A stretch of DNA of 64,000 bases from Serinus canaria. Taxonomy: Eukaryota > Chordata > Aves > Passeriformes > Fringillidae. Of the stretch, positions 9,614 to 62,867 are shown piece by piece; within the stretch, counting starts at the first letter, position 1, and each line of letters begins with the position of its first letter. A program made the translations under genes and the position numbers. The stretch spans positions 48,464,435 to 48,528,434 of the forward strand of contig NC_066317.1 of the NCBI RefSeq assembly GCF_022539315.1. Reading direction: 5' to 3'. The notes under the pieces were generated by a model, which did no database searches, was not told the origin of the DNA, and saw only the letters and a program-made list of their open reading frames with translations.

Positions 9614-9673
9614 CTTTGAGAGCAAAGAATGACAAACTGAGTAAAGTCAGTTTGTCATTCTTTGCTCTCAAAG
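9614..9673. repeat. Perfect 27-bp inverted repeat with 6-nt loop
   Basis: The left arm 9614-9640 (CTTTGAGAGCAAAGAATGAC...) is the exact reverse complement of the right arm 9647-9673. The spacer is GTAAAG at 9641-9646. It lies about 70 bp beyond the likely polyadenylation signal of gene A. A transcript would fold into a perfect 27-bp stem. Confidence 0.95.
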
Positions 9674-9981: not shown

Positions 9982-10919
9982 CTATTCTCCTGTTGGTCTC
10001 CTTGGCAAGAATCTTCCTGGGATCATACAGGGCCATCTTGCCAGGCGAGTGACATCTTCCCTAGGATAGCCGCAGCGCGCAGCGGTGAGGGCAGTCCCCA
10101 ACCAGAAGGAATGCACACCGTACTGCTCTGGAGACAGCCCCAGCAGGCACAGGGCACGTCTGAGAACCGCCAGGAACTCCCTCCTCGTTACACTCCTGAA
10201 GTCCGAGTGCACAAAGAGTGGCCCTTCCTGCCGTGGACGAGCTGCCAAATAGCTCCGGAGGGCCAGAACCGGGCACACCCACGGCTCCCCAGACAGCGCT
10301 AGGCTGATGACATGTCTCTCGTGACCCACGGGAGAATAAGGCAGGAAAAGCAGCACTTTCCTCCCCATCAGCTGGAGATCACTCAGGTACAGCAGCTCAG
10401 GCTGCAGTACATTACGGTGCTTTGCCACCATCTCTCCTACTCGAAGTGCCCCAAAAAAAGCTACAGTAAATAATGCACGAAACAGTAAGCATTCATACTG
10501 AGTTATGCATGCAGATTCCAGAACTCCTAAGAGAGATCGCAACATCTCAATCGTTACAGGCAAGTATTTATCCCTCAGGATACCTGCTCGACGTTTCAAC
10601 CCTGTCACCATGCAACAGGTTATAGGATCTTCCAGAGGATCAGAGTTACCAGTCAATTTTGATAAATATGAAAGTGCTGCCATGTATATCAGTGTCTTCG
10701 AGGAGGAATAATTAGATTCCACAGCCAAAAACCCTCTAATTTGCTCCACTGGAATTGGCCAGGCTGCAGGCATTCCCATGCTTTCCCTGAAGACGAGGAA
10801 TTTTTTCAGTCCTTCGAGGTAGGCTTGCCAAAGCCTACTATCCCCCGAGTGCTCCAGCAACGACAAAGTCTTCAGGGGCCAAGGTCCCAAGGAATGCTTC
10901 TGATGACTGATCTCGCTTC
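9982..10919 (-). CDS. Gene A exon 2: catalytically degenerate tyrosine-recombinase-like protein
   Basis: Main coding exon of a predicted 363-aa protein (exon 1 at 11397-11550). The splice acceptor is clear (TTCTCTTGCAG, AG at 10920-10921), and the phase-1 junction joins exon 1 without breaking the frame. Residues about 70-165 resemble the helical core-binding domain of tyrosine recombinases (WxxYLEGLKKFL, AWPIPVEQIRGFL, DPLEDP, GLKRR). Residues about 170-355 resemble the catalytic domain (PVTIEMLRSLL, LFRALFTVAFFGALRVGEMV, CPVLALRSYL, GPLFVHSD, REFLAVLRRAL, GVHSFW, RLARW). The first catalytic arginine is kept (R211 in ALRVG). The usual lysine region reads YSPVGH, the HxxR motif is H321-S-F-W324 (Arg replaced by Trp), and F355 stands where the nucleophilic tyrosine is expected. 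Strand-exchange activity is therefore unlikely; DNA binding may remain. Gene B (plus strand) is a paralogue. I know no symbol for it. The frame is intact to the stop. Confidence 0.75.
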
Positions 10920-11239
10920 CTGCAAGAGAAGATCCACATTAGCACATGGTGGCAAGAGGCATCAGCATACTGCTTCAGCGGCAATAAAGACTCCACTCCA
11001 GATAACGCCGTGAGTTTATCTGATAGACAGCTCTCACCCAGGTGCACCGGAGAGATTTTTCAAATGAGAAACAAGCAACATATCAGGCCCGTTTCAGTCA
11101 CTGGATGTGGTAACGCTCCCTGACTTTACAAGGTTGCGGAGTAGTAATGAAGACAAATAGAAAGCAATTTTTAAACCAAGGGACGGCTACAGAAGCAACA
11201 ACAAAGGTCACACAGCGCACTCCCTCCAGTAGGTAACAT

Positions 11240-11700
11240 TATTTCCCAGCCCAGGAGGGAGAACTCTCCCCACCATCCCCCCGCACCCTCTGGCCTCGCA
11301 CAAGAACGCGAGCAAAGCCAAAGAGCTGCCCGGTAGGAGGCACGGCCGCCAGCGGTGCGGTGCCCCCCGGCATCGCCGGCCCCGGCCCGCACTTACCGCT
11401 CCGCGGGGCTTCTCGGCTGCGGGGCGGAGAGGCGCCTCTGTGCCCGGCAAGGCTCGGCTCCAGCCACTCCATCCCCGGCTCCCGGGCCAGCAGCGCCAGC
11501 ATGTCCCAGAAGAGTGAGGCGGCAGGCGGATCGCGGGAGGGGCAGGCCATGGCAGCGGGACGAGCGGCCGGAGCGCCGGACGAAGACTGCCGGGGCTGGG
11601 CTCTGGGGGCCCTTTTATCGAGGGCCCTCCTCGGAGCAGCCCCGCAGGTCCGAGCGCTGCCCCGGGTGATTGGGGGGAGGATGGGCGCCGCCTGAGAACT
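11240..11700 (-). promoter_or_regulatory. CpG-rich promoter of gene A with TATA and CCAAT boxes
   Basis: GC- and CpG-rich patch covering exon 1 and upstream. On the minus strand a TATA-like CGATAAAAGG lies at 11611-11620, about 60 bp before the ATG. An inverted ATTGG at 11669-11673 reads as CCAAT about 50 bp further upstream. The same order and similar spacing occur before gene B. The transcription start is inferred, not shown. Confidence 0.55.
11397..11550 (-). CDS. Gene A exon 1
   Basis: The ATG at 11548-11550 sits in a strong Kozak context (GCTGCCATGG). The exon ends at a consensus donor (AGCG|GTAAGT, GT at 11395-11396) in phase 1, matching the exon 2 acceptor. It encodes 51 residues plus one base. 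Residues about 13-30 read FWDMLALLAREPGMEWL, and gene B exon 1 has the nearly equivalent FWSLLALLRREPGMGWL. That shared motif, outside the recombinase domain, is the best evidence that this exon belongs to the gene. Exon and promoter lie in a CpG-rich patch. The tail is Arg/Ser/Pro-rich and probably disordered. Confidence 0.7.
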
Positions 11701-12083
11701 GAAAGGTGCGAAACGGCCAGGCTTTTATTACATCCTCGGCCGAGTCTGAAATGTGACTGGATTTAGTGAAAAGGTTAAAAAGGAGAGAAATGTACTTGTG
11801 CTACCACCCAGTTACCACTGGGCTCTGAAAGACGTGGTTTCCAGGTTTGGTAGGGAATCGCTGAGGGCAGCTGGCTCTGTTCTGAATTACTCAAGAGCCT
11901 TCCTCCGCTGTAAAGTGCAGGCTGAGATGCTTTTGCACAGTTCAACGAGACAGCTACCTTCCCACAGAAGCTGAAAAATCCTGAGAAAAAAACCAAAGCT
12001 ACCAGGCTCCTCAGCCGACACCTTAAACTTTTGGTCTCCCTTTGAAGAAAGCTGTCCAGGGACCGCGGCGGCAGCCTTCCCTG

Positions 12084-12672
12084 TGTGAAAAACGCCAATC
12101 ACTTGTTTTTAGAATTTTAAATGTTTAATAGTAAAAAAATGGTTATAAAAATAGTAACACAATTAGAGTAATAATAATTTGGGCAATTTGAGTTAGGACA
12201 ATATGAGACAATAGGAACAAAGAGTTACTGACGTCCGGTTACCTTTTTCTGGGCAGCATAAGCCCGAAAAAGGACACACGTTAACAGAGGATTAACCCTT
12301 AAAAAAGCCAGTCTGTGGCATACTAATACACTTCAGACATGATGCACAAATTCCATTCAAACAAAGGATTCGGTCTGGTCATCGTCAGCTTCTTCCTCCC
12401 GAACCTATTCTTCGAGGCTGGAAGAATTTCGTTTCTTCTGACAAGTGAGCAATAAATTCTTTTTCTCTGAAAGATTTAGGTGTCCTGTGGCTGCTATCTC
12501 GCTGCAAGTCCTTTCTTTAAAAAAAATATCCTACATAGCATAGTTTCTATTTTAACTACAAAAGTTACCTTTTTAAGTACACGACTACATTTATCATATT
12601 ATTAGAATGTTAATGCAGCAAAATACATATAATAAATATCTGCGTAGAGCCATATAATATGCACATTTCATA
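12084..12672. mobile_element. Passerine LTR between the two recombinase-like genes
   Basis: It starts TGTGAAAAACGCCAATCAC and runs through several words I recognise from an abundant songbird LTR. These include 'gacaatatgagacaataggaac', 'ggttacctttttctgggcag', 'ttaacagaggattaaccctt', 'gatgcacaaattccattcaa' and 'gcgtagagccatataatatgcacatttcata'. It ends near 12672 with TTTCATA, roughly an inverted match to the start. No target-site duplication is obvious. It lies between the two divergent start codons, so it may affect either promoter. Confidence 0.65.
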
Positions 12673-13019
12673 CCTAGGATCTTCCACCCCCTGAAGATTT
12701 GACCATTACTCCTGCCCGTCCTAGAGACCTGTACTGCCTCTGTAACTCCCGCTGCTGCTGGCTCTCTCCTTTTACCAACAAAAGGGCACAGACTTGTGGC
12801 AGGGCAGAAGAATAGGGCCAGGGACACATGGATTAAGCCACCCGCGGACACATTCTCTGCTCCTTCCTTAGCCCTCAGCTGCAGCACAATGGAGGCGATA
12901 ATGGGCCTCTTAAGCACTGGAAGTGTCTCCTTCCAGGTAGTCCCCCTGCAGAGTTCTCCGTGGGAAGAGGGCGGAGGAGGCAGGATGGGGGGACCCCCCC
13001 AGGGACCCAAAGGCACAGG

Positions 13020-13095
13020 CTCGGATTGGGCCGCAGAAAGGCACGTAAAGGGGGCGTTCCGATTTGCATTGGAGGGCCAGGGTATAAAAGGGCAG
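13020..13095 (+). promoter_or_regulatory. Core promoter of gene B: CCAAT, octamer and TATA box
   Basis: A TATA box (TATAAAAG) lies at 13083-13090, about 75 bp before the ATG at 13162. An octamer motif ATTTGCAT (POU/Oct-factor site) lies at 13062-13069, about 14 bp upstream of it. An inverted CCAAT (ATTGG) occurs at 13025-13029, with another at 13068-13072. TATA and CCAAT match the layout before gene A; the octamer was not seen there. Confidence 0.6.
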
Positions 13096-13161
13096 CACAG
13101 TGACACCATCGAGGAGTCGTTGGTTGGAGCCACTCGCTGCGTGGCTGCTGTTTTGTTGGTG

Positions 13162-13324
13162 ATGGAGAGAACAGCTGAGCTGCCTGCTGCCCCTTCACCC
13201 TTCTGGTCACTGCTGGCGCTGCTGCGGCGGGAGCCCGGCATGGGGTGGCTGCCGTGTGGTCCGGATGGCTGCTCCGGATCCAGGGGTACCAGTGGACTGG
13301 AGGCTGGCAACGGGGAAGGAACTG
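13162..13324 (+). CDS. Gene B exon 1
   Basis: The ATG at 13162 has G at -3 and +4. The exon encodes 54 residues plus one base and ends at a GTAACT donor (GT at 13325-13326) in phase 1. Residues about 14-30 read FWSLLALLRREPGMGWL, matching gene A exon 1. The frame stays open past the donor to 13368, but the phase-1 acceptor at 13809-13810 and the gene A structure favour splicing here. The tail is Gly/Ser-rich and probably disordered. Confidence 0.6.
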
Positions 13325-13693
13325 GTAACTGCGCCCTTGGGGGGCAAGGAGGGGCAGTGGGCAGCTGAGTGGGGGGAGAGGTGGGTAGAGTCTTGCCAGG
13401 TTCTTCCATGAGGCCTGACCAAACTGTTCAAAGACTTCTGAGACCTCTGTGAAATCCTGAATATATTGGTACTTGGTGGTGCCCTTGTCACTCCCGGCCA
13501 GCCATGCCCATTGGTGGAGGTCTGAGGTCACAGAAACCTTGCAGTAGGGTGTCAGATTGTCACCAAGCTTGAGATATTGCTTTAAAGTGACAAATAGGTG
13601 GGGGTTTATGGGTTTTGAGAATGTAATCCTCCTCCTGTGCTCTGGCTGTTGGAAACTCTGCAGATGAGAGTCGTAAGAATGTGTGGGACAGGC

Positions 13694-13719
13694 TTTTTTT
13701 TTTTTTTTTTTTTTTTTTT
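13694..13719 (+). repeat. T(26) tract in the intron of gene B
   Basis: An uninterrupted run of 26 T about 90 bp upstream of the exon 2 acceptor. It may be an A-rich retroelement tail on the other strand or simple slippage. Confidence 0.9.
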
Positions 13720-13810
13720 CAAAAAAGTTCAAGTAAAGGCTGAAGCATGTTGAAAGGGAGGGAACTCCTATCTGCTTTTGTTTACCATTACTAACATGGT
13801 TTTCTTTCAG

Positions 13811-14691
13811 CAGATGAGCTCAGCCCGGTTCCTGAGAAGAATTCCTTGGGCCCTTGTCCCCTGAAGGCTCTGCTGTTACTGGAGGACTCAAGAGAGGGAC
13901 ACGTATGGCAAGTCTACCATGAAGGCCTGAAAAAATTTCTTTCCTTTAGAGAAGGCATGTCTCTGTCTGCAGTCTGGCCAATTCCAGTTGAACAAATTAG
14001 AGAGTTTCTGGTCTCCATGGAGTCCCAGGATCAGCCTGCCACGAAAATAATAATGTATATGGAAGGACTGTCCTTCATCTCCAGAATGGTAGATCATCCT
14101 GACCCTCTTCCAGATCCTCTTGTCTATTACATGATGTCAAGGCTGAAACGGAGGAGTAGCCGTTCAAATGATGAATACTCTCCTGTAACAATTGAAGTGT
14201 TAAGATCTCTCCTGGGAACTCTGGAGTCTGTGTGCAGCTCTCCTTATGAGTGTATGCTGTTTCGTGCCATTTTTACTGTAGCTTTTTTTGGTGTACTCCA
14301 TATAGAAGATATGGTGGCAAATGACCAAAATATAGCACAGCCAGACCTCCTGTACTTGAGTGACCTCCAGCTGACAGAAGGAAGTGCAACCCTTTTTCTG
14401 CATCCATCTCATGTGGGCCAACAGAGGTGTTTGGTCCGACTGAGACTACGTAAAGAGATGTGGGTCTGTCCTGTTGAAGCTCTCCGTACCTATGTGAGAG
14501 CACGGCCACCAGGGGAGGGCCCTCTCTTTGTGCATTTAAACAGTAGGGCTGTGACCAGGAGGGAGTTCCTCACTGTCCTCCGCCGTGGCCTCAGGTTTGC
14601 TGGTCTTCCTTCAAACCAGTATGCTGTGCATTCCTTCTGGCTGAGGAACCCTAACAGGAGTTTCTCATGGGCATTCTCACAAAGTGATTAA
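13811..14691 (+). CDS. Gene B exon 2: more degenerate tyrosine-recombinase-like protein, shifted C-terminus
   Basis: The acceptor is TTTCTTTCAG (AG at 13809-13810), and the phase fits exon 1, giving a predicted 347-aa protein. It aligns with gene A throughout: GPCPLKALLLLED, WQVYHEGLKKFLSF, VWPIPVEQIREFL, PVTIEVLRSLLGTLES, FTVAFFGVLHIEDMV, GPLFVHLNSR and NQYAVHSFW. By eye well over half the residues match. The first catalytic arginine is His (H218), the lysine motif is lost (HPSHVG), and HxxR is H328-S-F-W331, the same Arg-to-Trp change as in gene A. After HSFWL the frame departs from the family and stops within 15 codons. A different frame around 14669-14710 continues as a recognisable family C-terminus ending in RMARWW, so a small indel near 14645-14668 has shifted the end. 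It may be a truncated functional protein or a young pseudogene. Confidence 0.65.
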
Positions 14692-15167
14692 CAGAATGGC
14701 AAGGTGGTGGTGAAGACTCTGAAAAAGACATACTTCTGTCTCTGTTGCACTTTCATAGTAGAGGGTATCTTCTGCAATGCACAAATTTTATACTTCATAA
14801 GGCTAAATTATCTGTGCTCTGTAAAGCTAGAGAGAAGGGGAGGAATGAGTGGAAGGTGACTTCACACCTGTGGTGCTTTTGAGAATGAAGTGGCATGATT
14901 TTAAAACTGGGACTTGTGGGGATGCGCACTTGGTATTCAGCATGTTTGCTCTAACTGCACTTTGACCTTGTGTAATCTTACATTAAATGGTGCTTTCTTT
15001 CAAGAACTTCTCCAGGTTGGTGGTTTGGGGGTTTTTTTTACACCCTGGTCAAAGGCCATTCCTTGCAGTGGTGACAATGTAACTTGATACAAGCCTGAAC
15101 TCTTTTTTGCTGTCTAGTGTGATGAGAAGTAAAGCTAACTGACAGCTGGTGATAATGTGACACCATC

Positions 15168-32305: not shown

Positions 32306-32881
32306 TCAAAAGATCTTGCACTCATTAATGGAGAAGAGCTTCCGCCTGTTCTGCCTTTTGGCTTGATTGACTGCAGTCCTCACAGCATACTCAAACACCT
32401 GCTGCACTCCCCTGTTGCTGAGGGCAGAGCACTCCAAATAGCCTTTGGCTCGCACATCCTGGGCGAGCCGCTTTCCATCTATAGGGCTGATGCAGGAGGA
32501 ACTGTAGGGACCCATGTCTCGCTGGTCAGTCTGAGTGGCCACCACCAAAACGGGGATGCGGGGCAAATGGCTGCGGATCTCGCTGATCCATTTGTTCCTG
32601 AGGTTCAGAAAGGAATTATGGTTTGCCACCGAGTAGCACATTAATACCACATCTGCCTGTTGGTAGGAGAGGGGGCGAATGCCTTTAAAGGCATCGCTGC
32701 CAGATGTGTCCCAAAGACCTAAGCTGATCTGTACGCCATCCATGAAGACATCCACTCCAGTATTTTCATATACAGTGGGTCTGTAGTCATCTGGAAAAGT
32801 CTCAGAGGTGAAACGTACCAGGAGAGATGTTTTCCCAACGGCAGAGTCTCCCACCAGAACACACTTGACTGAATCCAGCAT
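32306..32881 (-). CDS. RHOH: RHOH, GTPase-deficient Rho family protein
   Basis: Complete 191-aa coding exon starting at the ATG of [12 protein letters not shown]; the open frame extends seven codons upstream but without an ATG. 191 aa is the length of mammalian RHOH, and the whole coding region sits in one exon, as in mammals. Seen: the P-loop GDSAVGKT (residues 11-18) has Ser13 where active Rho GTPases have the first switch glycine. Switch II reads DTSGSDAF, with Ser62 at the Gln61-equivalent catalytic position. TQTD occupies the guanine-specificity motif, ECSAL the G5 motif, and the protein ends in a CKIF prenylation box. Tyr73 and Tyr83 match the ITAM-like tyrosines described for human RHOH. 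Known: RHOH is a constitutively GTP-bound blood-cell protein that recruits ZAP70 and LCK in T-cell receptor signalling. A splice acceptor lies about 32 nt upstream (AG at 32914-32915), consistent with upstream non-coding exons. Confidence 0.97.
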
Positions 32882-32913
32882 TTTATTAACATCCAAGGCC
32901 AAGAGTGCGGTCT
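32882..32913 (-). other. RHOH: RHOH 5' UTR portion of the coding exon
   Basis: A pyrimidine-rich run followed by CTGCACAG ends at 32914 on the minus strand, so the coding exon probably starts at 32913 with about 32 nt of 5' UTR. Human RHOH also has non-coding 5' exons joined just ahead of the start codon. The acceptor could instead be two bases further in. Confidence 0.5.
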
Positions 32914-35900
32914 CTGTGCAGCAGGAGCTGGACGGAGAGATGCAGTGGTCTTAGAAGCCTTCTATATAATTTCCATTTAGTGAGAAACCATCCAAATCTC
33001 TTTACTTCTTATGACTCGATTCCACCACTTGAGACTAAAATTTCGTTTTCTCCCACATGACTCTGTCGGTTTTAAATCTTCAATCAGTCAAATGACGTTT
33101 CTGGAAAGTAAAAATAAAATGTAACATTTATAACTCACAGAGAACAAACCATTCCTCATCAAGATGAAGATGCCTGGACACATCTTTGGACAGGCACGGC
33201 AAGTATCCCTCACTGAGGATGATGAACTTTTCCATTTCCTCCCAGCCAGCTGTGTGTGCAACAGCCATTCGCATAAATAACCTTCTTACTGCTCCACAGG
33301 GGCTAACAGTCTTAGCACTATTACCATTTTCCACTGACACAAGCTATTTTTTCCTTCCAATTGTCTAGAGACTAATAAAATTAATTTAACTTTGATATAA
33401 CTGCTACTAATATGCTGTGAGACATTCCCTGCCTCTGACTTTCACCAAGACTGACAGAATCCTGAATCCCTAAATGATCAGTTCAGATTCCCTTAAAAAT
33501 GTAGCCACGCTCTCTAGAGGTAGTCAGGAGAAAAAAAAGCTCTTTGCTAACCAATTTGACTATTTAAACAATCCCATATGAGACAGTAACACAGTACCAA
33601 AAGAGGTTAATTTTTTTCTTACAAATTGCTTTCAACAATCAAGAAGAACAAGCCAAAGAAAACTCTACTACCAATGCTTGCCCCAGTAAAAATTTCATTT
33701 GAAGGGATTTTAACTGTCCTGGCATTTACTCTCTTGTAAAACTGCACTAAGAGTACTCTTCAGAGTATGTAATTGCTTTTGAGCTCCTGCCAGCATTCAG
33801 TCAAATTTTCCTATTTTGAAAGCATTTGTTTCTTCCCCACTAACTGTGTGCAAGATTCACTGCTCACACAGGGTGACACACAAGATGATCCGAAAATCAC
33901 TAACAGCAAAACTGAAAACAAATTAGTTCTGATGAACAAGAGTAATTAAAAAGAAAGTATCACTGCATAATTTCAAAATGTCATATGTTTGTTACATAAA
34001 TAATATATTTCTGTTTCCTTCATATATGCGGAGAGACATCACAGCTGAAGGCTATTTGCACACATATAAATAATGGCCACAAAGGGCATATACTATATTT
34101 TACTGTAATGCTCTCCACTTTCAGTACCCTAACCACCCCCTCTCCCTTTATTTCTAGAACACTCCAAGCTTTGGCTTACTCCACAAACGGGGGAACACAA
34201 AGGGAAAGTGCTAGATGAACTTAGAGAGAACATTTTACAGGTACCGACAACTGCTATCGCCCTGCTTTCATTCTGTGCGGAGGCCATGCCCTACCTCCTC
34301 TGGTGCTGCTGGCACACCTGCATCTCTCCCACCAGATGACCCGGCTGCAGGAAGACTGGAGCACGCTGCTTTATAGAGGTGGCACCAGGTCTGCGGGCTG
34401 TCCCTGTGCGTGCTCGAGTTACAGTATCTGCAGGAGTCATTGCAACAGACGGTGCTTCCTGGCCTGCCAGCGACACCGTGCTCTCAGCACTGCCGCTCGC
34501 TTCCAGGAAGTGGGATGGAGGCTGAGGCTGCTTCACGACATTCCTGGCTGCCGGGAAACAGGCTGCACTGTGAATTTAAGTTTTAGTGGCAGCAGACGAA
34601 AATTTGCTTTTAAAGATTCATTAGATCTAACTCCACTCTTTTGCCTTCTCTCTTCTCCAAACAAGCTCTCAAGGGAACTAAACCAGACCTTTACAAAACA
34701 CATCTATAAAAAATTCAAAAAGCGTATGTAGGATAAACATTCAAATTGCTCATATGAATCAGAATCTCTCAGAGTATTCTATTTCAAAATTGGGTCAGCA
34801 ATTTTATAGTTTGAAAACACCTCAATTTCACCACAAGAAATTTCACCAAAGCTGCATATTCTCAGGAGAAAGTTTCCATGTACCAAGTAACCTTTTCGGA
34901 GCAAACATTTCTTTGGTGCGAGTAGTCCTCAGTACCTTCAGGTTCATTATTTTGCACACATTGGAATGTGGGGGAAAATAAGGATGTCCAAAGCATGACT
35001 TTTGCAATTTCATAAATGCCAAAACAGAGAAAGACAGATAAAAGGATTGTTCTGGCACTCAACTTGTTGATTACCAGGTCAAATTACGCTGGTTATTTTG
35101 AAAGTATAAAAATTACTAAAGATTGAAAGACATATTAAGGACTAGTGAATATGGCTAGTTAACAGACAATACAAGATACTAAAATATTCCACTGTGACAG
35201 TGCAGAATTGTTTTCAAATCAAATGATATTGTTCTACATTCCATCAGTGAATAATAAAAAACCCTGGTATATAACAAGGTCCATATTGTGATCCTGTGGA
35301 CAAATTGCCTTCAATGGCCCTGATCTTGCATTTGGTAACAACAACTCATCTGCCTCCATATACAATCAGGACTACATATGTGCATATTGAAGCATTATCT
35401 GTAATTAGGCACATAGCTGGTCCTTGTCGCAGCCTCAGGATAAGAGCATCAGTAGTGTATTAAAATAATTACACAAGTTCACCTCACTGGATGGAAAATG
35501 CTTGATTAAGCATCAATAAAAAGCAGTGTCCTTTAAAGAGCAGTTCTTCAAAGTGTCCTTTAAAGACAGTACTGGCCACTTCTGTGCCTCAGTATACAAC
35601 CAGTCTTATAAATATTTGCAAAACTTTTTGTCCCCTTCTCTCATATTCTGTCTTGGTCCGACAGCACAGTGTGCTACAACCATTACAAGATTGCAGAAAA
35701 CCTTCTGATCACAAATCAGAGATGGAGTCTAAGCTGTGGAGGCTTTTTTTTTCCTCCAACAAATTGATTTTCAAAAATTTACCAACTTTATTAAGATCAT
35801 TTTGAGTATGGAATTCAATATATAACCATGAAATTCAATATATAAACCTATAAATCTTATTTCATGCTTTTTTTGGTTTATGCTATCATCACTCATAACA

Positions 35901-60517: not shown

Positions 60518-62174
60518 CTGCAACAGCAGGAATTGCAACGGTTAAAGTTGTCCTCAGCAGAGACTTGGCATGCAGTATAAGCCTTCCATGCATTCTTCTG
60601 AAAACTCTCACTACTCATTTGGAACTTTGTTTTCCCATGATGATATGCATATTTTAGATACAAATAGCAATTTTCCCCCATTCTGAAAAAGTCAAACTTT
60701 TGAAATCTAGATTGCTTGCAAAATGCATATTGTGATCATCACAAAATCCTTCCAATTTCATAGAAGGTTTACTGTTTTATCTTAAATAATGTGAATAAAG
60801 AAATAACATTTTATTGAATAAAGAAATTTAGAATAAATAAAATATAAATCCAGCTTTTGACACTTATGTCACATTATTTGGACTATTTTCTGCTATGTTG
60901 GAGCATGGAAATCAACAGATCAACATATTCCATGAGTTTTATTAGGGCACTTAGCCATGATAACAAAAGAAATTGCTCTCTTCCCAGAGATCACAGCAAC
61001 CTAAACTGATGAAGAGTTTGAAAAAGAGGAAACAAAAATGAAACTGGATTCTCACAACTAGATCTGCCAGTTTGGAATTATCAGTTCACATGACATGTTT
61101 TTTCAACTACTCTCCCCCACACCGTAACTTTATTTAGGTTTTATATTTATTTACTGTTAATTCTGCCAGCAAGAGAAAGTTCCCAGTATTGATCCTTTTC
61201 CCACGTACTTAACTTTTTTTTTTTCAGATTTAAGTAAATAGACTGAACAGAGAGCCCCTACTATCAATTTCAGCACTGCTGATTTAAGTACAGTTCTGGA
61301 AATTTAGTTCTAAAAAGCATTAGGTTACAGTTTAAATTACACAAATGTCATTGCAGGAATTGCACCAGATAATGGAATTTAATTATCTCTGATGCATACT
61401 CAAAGACAAAGGTTATCTAAAGCCCCACTGAACACTTTTATTTACACTCTGTGGAGGAACTGCTTCAAAAAATCCGCTTTGTGCGGCAGTACATTGCATA
61501 AGAAATATTTGTTATAGAAGCATTCCCAGGGTTAAATTTAGAGTGTAAACTAATAATGCAGAAAATTGATATTTTTACAGCATGGACACTCATGAAGTAC
61601 TTGAACTCTCCACTACGAGAAAAAAATGCATGAAATTATATTTCTGGAACCATCAATATTCTGATCTCAAGAAATGCTGCCAACAAACTGATACTGAAGT
61701 TTCTGAAAGGTAGCTCAAATCTCACACTTTCACATAGAAGTTGAAGACAGTAGCATCACTGTTGTTAGAATTCCAACACAGTAATTTTTCTTTTAAGATT
61801 ATAAAAGCAACATAGTTGTGGCAAAGCAATGCAATGGGGACACATATATTTGCATCATCACCTCAGTAAAAAATGTCATGAAGAACAGGCCAAGTATTCA
61901 ATAATAGTAATAAAATGGGATAAAACACAAGGAAGAACATTTACAAAGAAACAGGGGGAGGGAGGCAAAACAGAAAGCAACAAGAATCATTGTCATGTCA
62001 AAGAAAAACAATTCCACTGGGGTACTTTGAAAACAAGACAACACAAAGCCTAGTTGTTTTTAACATACATATTATTAAAGCACATTCACTCCCTCTACTA
62101 TTGCCATGTATCATGATTTCTTAAGAGAAAATGAGAATCATTTTTAGATGTAAGAATTATTACCTACACCCTAC

Positions 62175-62343
62175 CTTCACTTTTTTCCTGCAGTACTCTG
62201 GACAACTGATTCACAGCTTCATCCACATGGAGACCATGCAAATCCAACACGTTCATAGGCAGCAAGGAAGTATTTACTCTCTCAAAGATTTGCACAGCAG
62301 CAGCATGGTTAGCTTCTTTCATCTTCTGCTCATGAAGGCGACC
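62175..62343 (-). CDS. N4BP2: N4BP2 exon with the start of the Smr domain
   Basis: A 169-nt exon bounded by an AAAG acceptor (AG at 62344-62345) and a GTAGGG donor (GT at 62173-62174). It reads GRLHEQKMKEANHAAAVQIF, then ERVNTSLLPMNVLDLHGLHV and DEAVNQLSRVLQEKSE. LDLHGLHVDEA is the conserved LDxH motif that opens Smr domains. N4BP2 (BCL3-binding protein, with N-terminal polynucleotide-kinase and CUE domains outside this window) uses this C-terminal domain as a nicking endonuclease. Frame and phase continue into the next exon. The acceptor has a poor pyrimidine tract, but the protein match decides it. Confidence 0.93.
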
Positions 62344-62867
62344 CTTTATTCATAAGCACAGTGACTATCAGACATCGAGAAATAATTTAAGATCCACACT
62401 GCTCAGTGATTTCAAAATGACAGCACTGTCAGGGTGCTTTTAGTTCAAGTTTGAACTAGAAAAATTTATAATTCTAGCAGAACTTCTGCAAGATGCTTAG
62501 TGAGACATACTCACAAGAAGATTTCATTAAATCTGTTTGTGAGAAACTACTCAAAGCTGGCACAAAGAAGACATTATAACAAAAGCCTTACAAGGAGGAA
62601 AAAACAGGCAGAAAAGGCACAAAATCATAAGGTCTGTACATAAGCTAAAAAGTTACACTCCCTAGTGAGTTGCAGATTTATTTTCCTAACAATAGATTTT
62701 TTATTTCCTGCAAGTATTTTGCTAAAATTATAATGAAACAGTGTCAGAGAAACTGCCCAGATTAGGAAAAGCCCGCTGACAGTTGTATTTGAGGTTAATT
62801 CTTCCAAATGCATTCCCAAAACTTCAGATAAGCCAAGGGTAAACGACATAATAACAATAATAACAAT

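Follow-up and report, generated by a model that had tools for sequence, protein, structure and literature searches.

A head-to-head pair of two-exon genes in the canary genome that probably derives from a domesticated tyrosine recombinase

The subject of this study is a stretch of 64,000 nucleotides from the genome of the canary Serinus canaria (C5:48464435-48528434; hereafter the window, to which all short coordinates refer), in which two paralogous genes, here named A and B, lie head to head on opposite strands. Gene A, on the minus strand, starts with a small exon 1 (11397..11550, running from the ATG to the donor, with 51 codons and one further base) encoding FWDMLALLAREPGMEWL, which is followed by a phase 1 intron (10920..11396; GTAAGT...TTGCAG) and by an exon 2 (9982..10919, stop codon included) for a tyrosine recombinase-derived domain. 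Gene B, on the plus strand, consists of an exon 1 (13162..13324) encoding FWSLLALLRREPGMGWL, a phase 1 intron (13325..13810; GTAACT...TTTCAG) and an exon 2 (13811..14691) for a recombinase-derived domain in which the first catalytic Arg has become His. The donors and acceptors are canonical at the junction 11397/10919 of gene A (G/GTAAGT and CTCTTGCAG) and at the junction 13324/13811 of gene B (G/GTAACT and TTTCAG), and the spliced frames of 363 and 347 amino acids, respectively, have no internal stops. An initial annotation, made from the letters of the window, had described two paralogous frames on opposite strands, each in phase with a small ATG-bearing first exon and its donor, and gene A as free of stops through 363 codons; this observation is confirmed.

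At the DNA level (E≤1e-3), A and B align over 65 bp of exon 1 at 80% identity and over 819 bp of exon 2 at 69.6%; no alignment was obtained at this threshold for the introns or the upstream regions. The first exon and the intron phase are thus shared, as had been proposed. On the minus strand, a TATA-like GATAAAA (11613..11619) and a CCAAT (11669..11673) lie 69 and 123 bases 5' of the ATG of gene A. Gene B has, on the plus strand, a TATAAA (13083..13088), an inverted CCAAT (ATTGG; 13025..13029) and a second ATTGG (13068-13072), located 79, 137 and 94 bases 5' of its ATG. The elements of the suggested common promoter layout therefore exist, but a shared promoter is unsupported because the upstream regions cannot be aligned and the CCAAT orientation is opposite. 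The 5' end of gene A (11200-11700) is GC-rich, with a GC content of 0.71 and a CpG observed/expected ratio of 0.74; this ratio is 0.42 in the 5' stretch of gene B.

In the canary, A and B are presumably spliced; database models of other birds show exon 1 with the same junction (e.g. zebra finch P0003, falcon P0016 and owl P0034). Many models of relatives start with exon 1, and some lack it or end it earlier. In P0014, P0030, P0035, P0009 and P0011, exon 1 stops early, right after the motif REP or its equivalent, which could possibly reflect an alternative donor; exon 1 in this window has no GT at that point. None of the 26 assembly proteins listed joins the exon-1 motif to exon 2. In songbird gene B, the reading frame is changed after HSFWL (14630-14716), so that the final 15 residues differ from those of non-passerine B proteins. 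A tail of the ancestral type, ending in ARWW, can still be read just downstream in another frame and extends beyond the present stop.

Neither A and B (E≤10) nor 36 members of their family (E≤1) gave a direct Pfam match, including to the phage-integrase model. The family is nevertheless related in sequence to proteins with a precomputed PF00589 assignment, such as P0093 (2.4e-38) and P0096 (2.9e-35), and the predicted fold is a two-domain clamp composed of a SAM-like N-terminal domain and a catalytic domain, both of which are well modelled. By sequence and predicted fold, the descent of A and B from the tyrosine recombinase superfamily was confirmed.

A search with the protein encoded by exon 2 of gene A yielded 77 proteins at E≤0.01 among 5871 candidates. 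Those with a species name come from birds, one crocodile and turtles, the closest being from Anomalospiza and the zebra finch. The loci are present in public annotation, where the relatives are mostly labelled 'uncharacterized' or 'hypothetical'; two of them (P0009 and P0010) carry a tyrosine recombinase label, and a godwit relative (P0014) carries a rho-GTPase label. In a tree of 54 sequences, built without one isoform, the assembly proteins lacking a name and some short models, 17 A sequences and the A of the window form one clade (SH-like approximate likelihood ratio test support of 100), and 31 B sequences and the B of the window form another (support of 99); the sequences of one crocodile and of three turtles fall outside both. 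The clade that unites the A and B sequences of birds has a support of 89 in this tree and of 98/95 in a second tree. Since both a grouse A and a guineafowl B exist, the pair predates the Galliformes/Neoaves split, which places the duplication on the bird stem; one protein apiece was listed for the crocodile and for each turtle. In several birds, the contigs bearing A and B are equally long as listed, and A and B have neighbouring identifiers (LOC134516187/LOC134516188 in Chroicocephalus; IHE44_0012977/IHE44_0012976 in Lamprotornis), so that the two genes are probably adjacent in those birds too.

In the second tree, 19 family sequences, snakes included, form a single clade (100/100), which makes one capture followed by one early inactivation the simplest history; the order and dates of the reptile splits are general background here. 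The two-part architecture is older than the duplication, because the exon-1 motif was found in crocodile, turtle and snake. The snake Erythrolamprus reginae has two closely similar family proteins, P0085 and P0086, on contigs that are equally long as listed; these apparently stem from a duplication separate from that of birds.

The active site was compared between 15 family sequences and 18 element-type sequences. In all 15 family sequences, the SKTDQ-type Lys, the second Arg (HSFR to HSFW) and the terminal Tyr of the YVR/YIR type are missing. The first catalytic Arg is kept in 13 of the 15 (it is lost in the B of the window and in P0087), as is the catalytic His (lost in barn owl A and in one snake copy). 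The element-type sequences keep HxxR in 16 of 18 cases and Tyr in 16 of 18, the exceptions being a degenerate Anolis sequence and a Podarcis fusion. Across 36 family sequences, the position of the second Arg is occupied by Trp in 33, by Cys in Willisornis B, by Gln in Lathamus B and by Arg in one A protein, that of the gull Chroicocephalus ridibundus (P0015), the sole Arg at this position; its Lys and Tyr are still absent. Judging from these residues, a protein of this family can hardly cut and rejoin DNA, and recombination by A or B is very unlikely.

The same residues bear on the view that the locus is a currently mobile recombinase element. Its recombinase ancestry fits such an element, but the active site is dead, A and B form separate clades across birds, and a search of the gene A protein against the canary assembly (1.05 Gb, 684 contigs) returned only A and B as matches among 6 candidates, counts of this kind being lower bounds for repeats. 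Within the limits of this search, an active transposon was therefore rejected, its probability being practically negligible, and hundreds of near-identical copies, which would have betrayed a current transposon, were not found.

For the 265 codons of the core, in which A and B share 58% amino acid identity, the non-synonymous and synonymous rates (dN/dS) were 0.299/0.960 with the NG86 method, 0.323/0.781 with YN00 and 0.313/0.842 by maximum likelihood (ML), giving ratios of 0.31, 0.41 and 0.37, respectively. This single paralogue pair points to purifying selection on exon 2 on average, the pattern in exon 1 being less clear. Exon 1 of 27 proteins that had been picked for having this exon in their models, with FW as the search anchor, contains the motif FWx[LM]LxLLxREPGMxWL or one close to it; among the non-anchor positions, P and the L of position 17 are present in all 27 proteins and E in 26. 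These findings bear on the idea that the pair is a functionless, decaying fossil. The changed tail frame and lost first Arg of songbird B speak for decay, but the core ratios of 0.31-0.41, the conserved exon-1 segment and the presence of long open reading frames in the snake, the crocodile, the turtles and many birds all argue against it. We therefore rejected a plain fossil as hardly credible.

As to the kind of element from which the recombinase was taken, the predicted protein P0103 of Podarcis muralis combines a recombinase part with a subsequent GDSL/SGNH-like hydrolase part, which scored 25.4 bits against a curated Pfam cut-off of 32.9 and also appears in the precomputed domain list; P0103 was the only one of 10 scanned proteins with such a part. 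The same order, recombinase before SGNH hydrolase, is described for amphibian Ngaro elements (PMC9210276). A retrotransposon of the Ngaro/DIRS type is the most likely source, with a chance that we put slightly above even. The competing possibility is that A and B belong to the known Crypton-derived DUF3504 genes, which show the same pattern of residue loss, with Tyr and the second Arg gone (PMC3212892). No DUF3504 match was found for A and B (E≤10) or the 36 members (E≤1), in a test that is insensitive since the family misses the phage-integrase model too. More telling are seven element-type relatives (P0088, P0091, P0093, P0096, P0098, P0100 and P0103), which matched phage-integrase or hydrolase models, along with chance-level others, and none of which matched DUF3504. 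Crypton recombinases are reported to match DUF3504, unlike these relatives, and PMC3212892 gives DIRS and Ngaro recombinases as lacking such a match and the DUF3504 genes as Crypton-derived. On the evidence of the element-type relatives, membership of A and B among the DUF3504 genes was considered highly improbable and left aside.

Taken together, we consider A and B to be domesticated host genes derived from a tyrosine recombinase, duplicated head to head and likely regulatory, with a probability of roughly 70%. The interpretation in the initial annotation, according to which a mobile recombinase gave rise to a host gene that was later duplicated in place, is supported by the recombinase ancestry, the two matches in the genome search, the separate A and B clades, the lost catalytic residues and the purifying pattern. 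A single domestication, in or before the early sauropsids, would have joined the coding piece of a mobile-element recombinase, as exon 2, to a short upstream exon that supplies the ATG. The most parsimonious view is that the catalytic Lys, the second Arg (HSFW in place of HxxR) and the C-terminal Tyr had gone before the split between snakes and archosaurs. After the head-to-head duplication on the bird stem, A would have stayed basic, B would have turned neutral or acidic, and the tail of B would have been altered in songbirds. The two-domain clamp could then dock onto DNA or a nuclear protein, with the conserved exon-1 segment recruiting a partner, so that the protein would be a small transcription or chromatin regulator, A being more DNA-facing and B perhaps its partner. 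We regard this mechanism as tentative, at somewhat less than even odds. A regulator is favoured because recombination is very unlikely, A retains the complete clamp and remains modestly positive in charge, and B loses charge. Many genes derived from tyrosine recombinases are described as transcriptional regulators, for which DNA or protein binding has been proposed (PMC3212892).

A different use of a dead recombinase would be to join the multimers of active element recombinases, or to sit on element ends, and thereby poison transposition. Tyrosine recombinases multimerise on DNA (PMC3212892), loss of catalysis with retention of the fold is what a poison subunit requires, and DIRS1-like sequences are abundant in Anolis, with 775 detected (PMC3266345). 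However, the canary genome gave no further match to the gene A protein within the lower bound noted above, the A/B pattern is on average purifying and the basic charge is reduced, all of which makes this role distinctly unlikely.

Several observations weigh against a regulatory host gene pair as we see it. The core net charge ranges from -6 to +10 in 16 family sequences versus +10 to +44 in 14 element-type sequences, although the cores were cut unevenly and some element sequences take in more or less sequence; this low charge is evidence against strong binding to DNA, particularly in the case of B, which is neutral or acidic. Basic runs are short, with one three-residue run in 5/8 family proteins and none in 3/8. 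These features would suit a scaffold that retains the fold solely for protein-protein contact, for instance in an A-B partner complex, and so would the location of the best-conserved 20-residue block (201-220 of falcon A; 0.83) in the central helices. Such a scaffold is possible but unlikely, since both clamp domains are well modelled, the core of A stays net positive (+6 to +10 in six A sequences) and many known genes of this origin regulate transcription (PMC3212892). Further points against the regulatory host gene reading concern constraint: the ratio comes from one paralogue pair, rises to 0.37-0.46 across all 340 aligned codons, and is 0.71 (NG86) or 0.38 (ML) in about 51 exon-1 codons, for which YN00 gave no value, so that exon 1 may be less constrained. 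Moreover, songbird B shows apparent decay, the Trp at the position of the second Arg is not strictly fixed, and the proposed junctions of A and B rest on database gene models. The element class rests on Podarcis P0103 with its hydrolase match below the cut-off, and no nearest element relative can be singled out from the trees. Lastly, Ndc10 and QRICH1 were only weak matches of a poor first structure model and are absent among the 50 matches listed for the good model.

Next to the pair, a Ras-family GTPase gene (32309..32950, minus strand), which we take to be RHOH, serves as a synteny anchor. Exons of a nicotinic receptor lie at C5 48461933-48463127 (minus strand), about 1.3-2.5 kb ahead of the window start; the nearest PDB chains are those of alpha-7, and the name CHRNA9 therefore rests on synteny. 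The neighbourhood proposed initially is thus present, its gene names being our assumption. A further piece (62167-62349, minus strand), with Smr and DUF1771 matches below the Pfam cut-offs, is presumably N4BP2. Downstream of gene A, 0.3 kb past its end, a perfect hairpin of 27 base pairs with a 6-base loop (9614-9673) has a predicted fold of -45.9 kcal/mol (z -8.4). An Rfam scan of the window gave no match; the hairpin may represent the precursor of a small RNA or, alternatively, a folded-back mobile repeat.

A literature search by titles and abstract openings found no description of this gene family, and the vertebrate genes traced to tyrosine recombinases in the cited portion of the literature are the Crypton-derived DUF3504 genes (PMC3212892). 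With about an even chance, A and B represent a vertebrate host gene family of a kind not known before, its recombinase coming from a Ngaro/DIRS-type retrotransposon and not from a Crypton. On this reading, a single capture in early sauropsids would have been followed by inactivation and by retention as a stand-alone regulator with its own interaction exon, which in birds became a divergent pair. If true, this capture would be separate from that of the DUF3504 genes and, as far as the searches reach, would have occurred in the reptile-bird line. It would offer a natural before/after series, from catalytic element enzymes through one gene apiece in the crocodile and the turtles to a diverging pair in birds, and would make the fate of a recombinase after loss of its cutting ability testable.

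Among known systems of DNA binding by a tyrosine recombinase fold without recombination, Ndc10 and the prophage regulator MrpR belong to lineages unrelated to A and B. The closest parallel is offered by the DUF3504 genes (KCTD1, KIAA1958, ZMYM2/3/4, QRICH1 and WOC), which are likewise recombinase-derived host genes that lost the second Arg and Tyr (PMC3212892). Unlike these, the A/B family is a stand-alone two-exon protein, confined to sauropsids in our searches and arranged head to head in birds, and neither the family (in the insensitive test) nor its element-type relatives match DUF3504. The LAP2alpha domains of TMPO and ZNF451 are host sequences of DIRS1-like origin (PMC4495291); they differ in deriving from a gag-like first open reading frame that was added to an existing gene, A and B being the recombinase itself. 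The likely source is best seen in the Ngaro-like recombinases of vertebrates, to which the domain order of Podarcis P0103 corresponds (PMC9210276, for amphibian Ngaro), but most of the element-type sequences keep the catalytic set, of which the family has lost the Lys, the second Arg and the Tyr.

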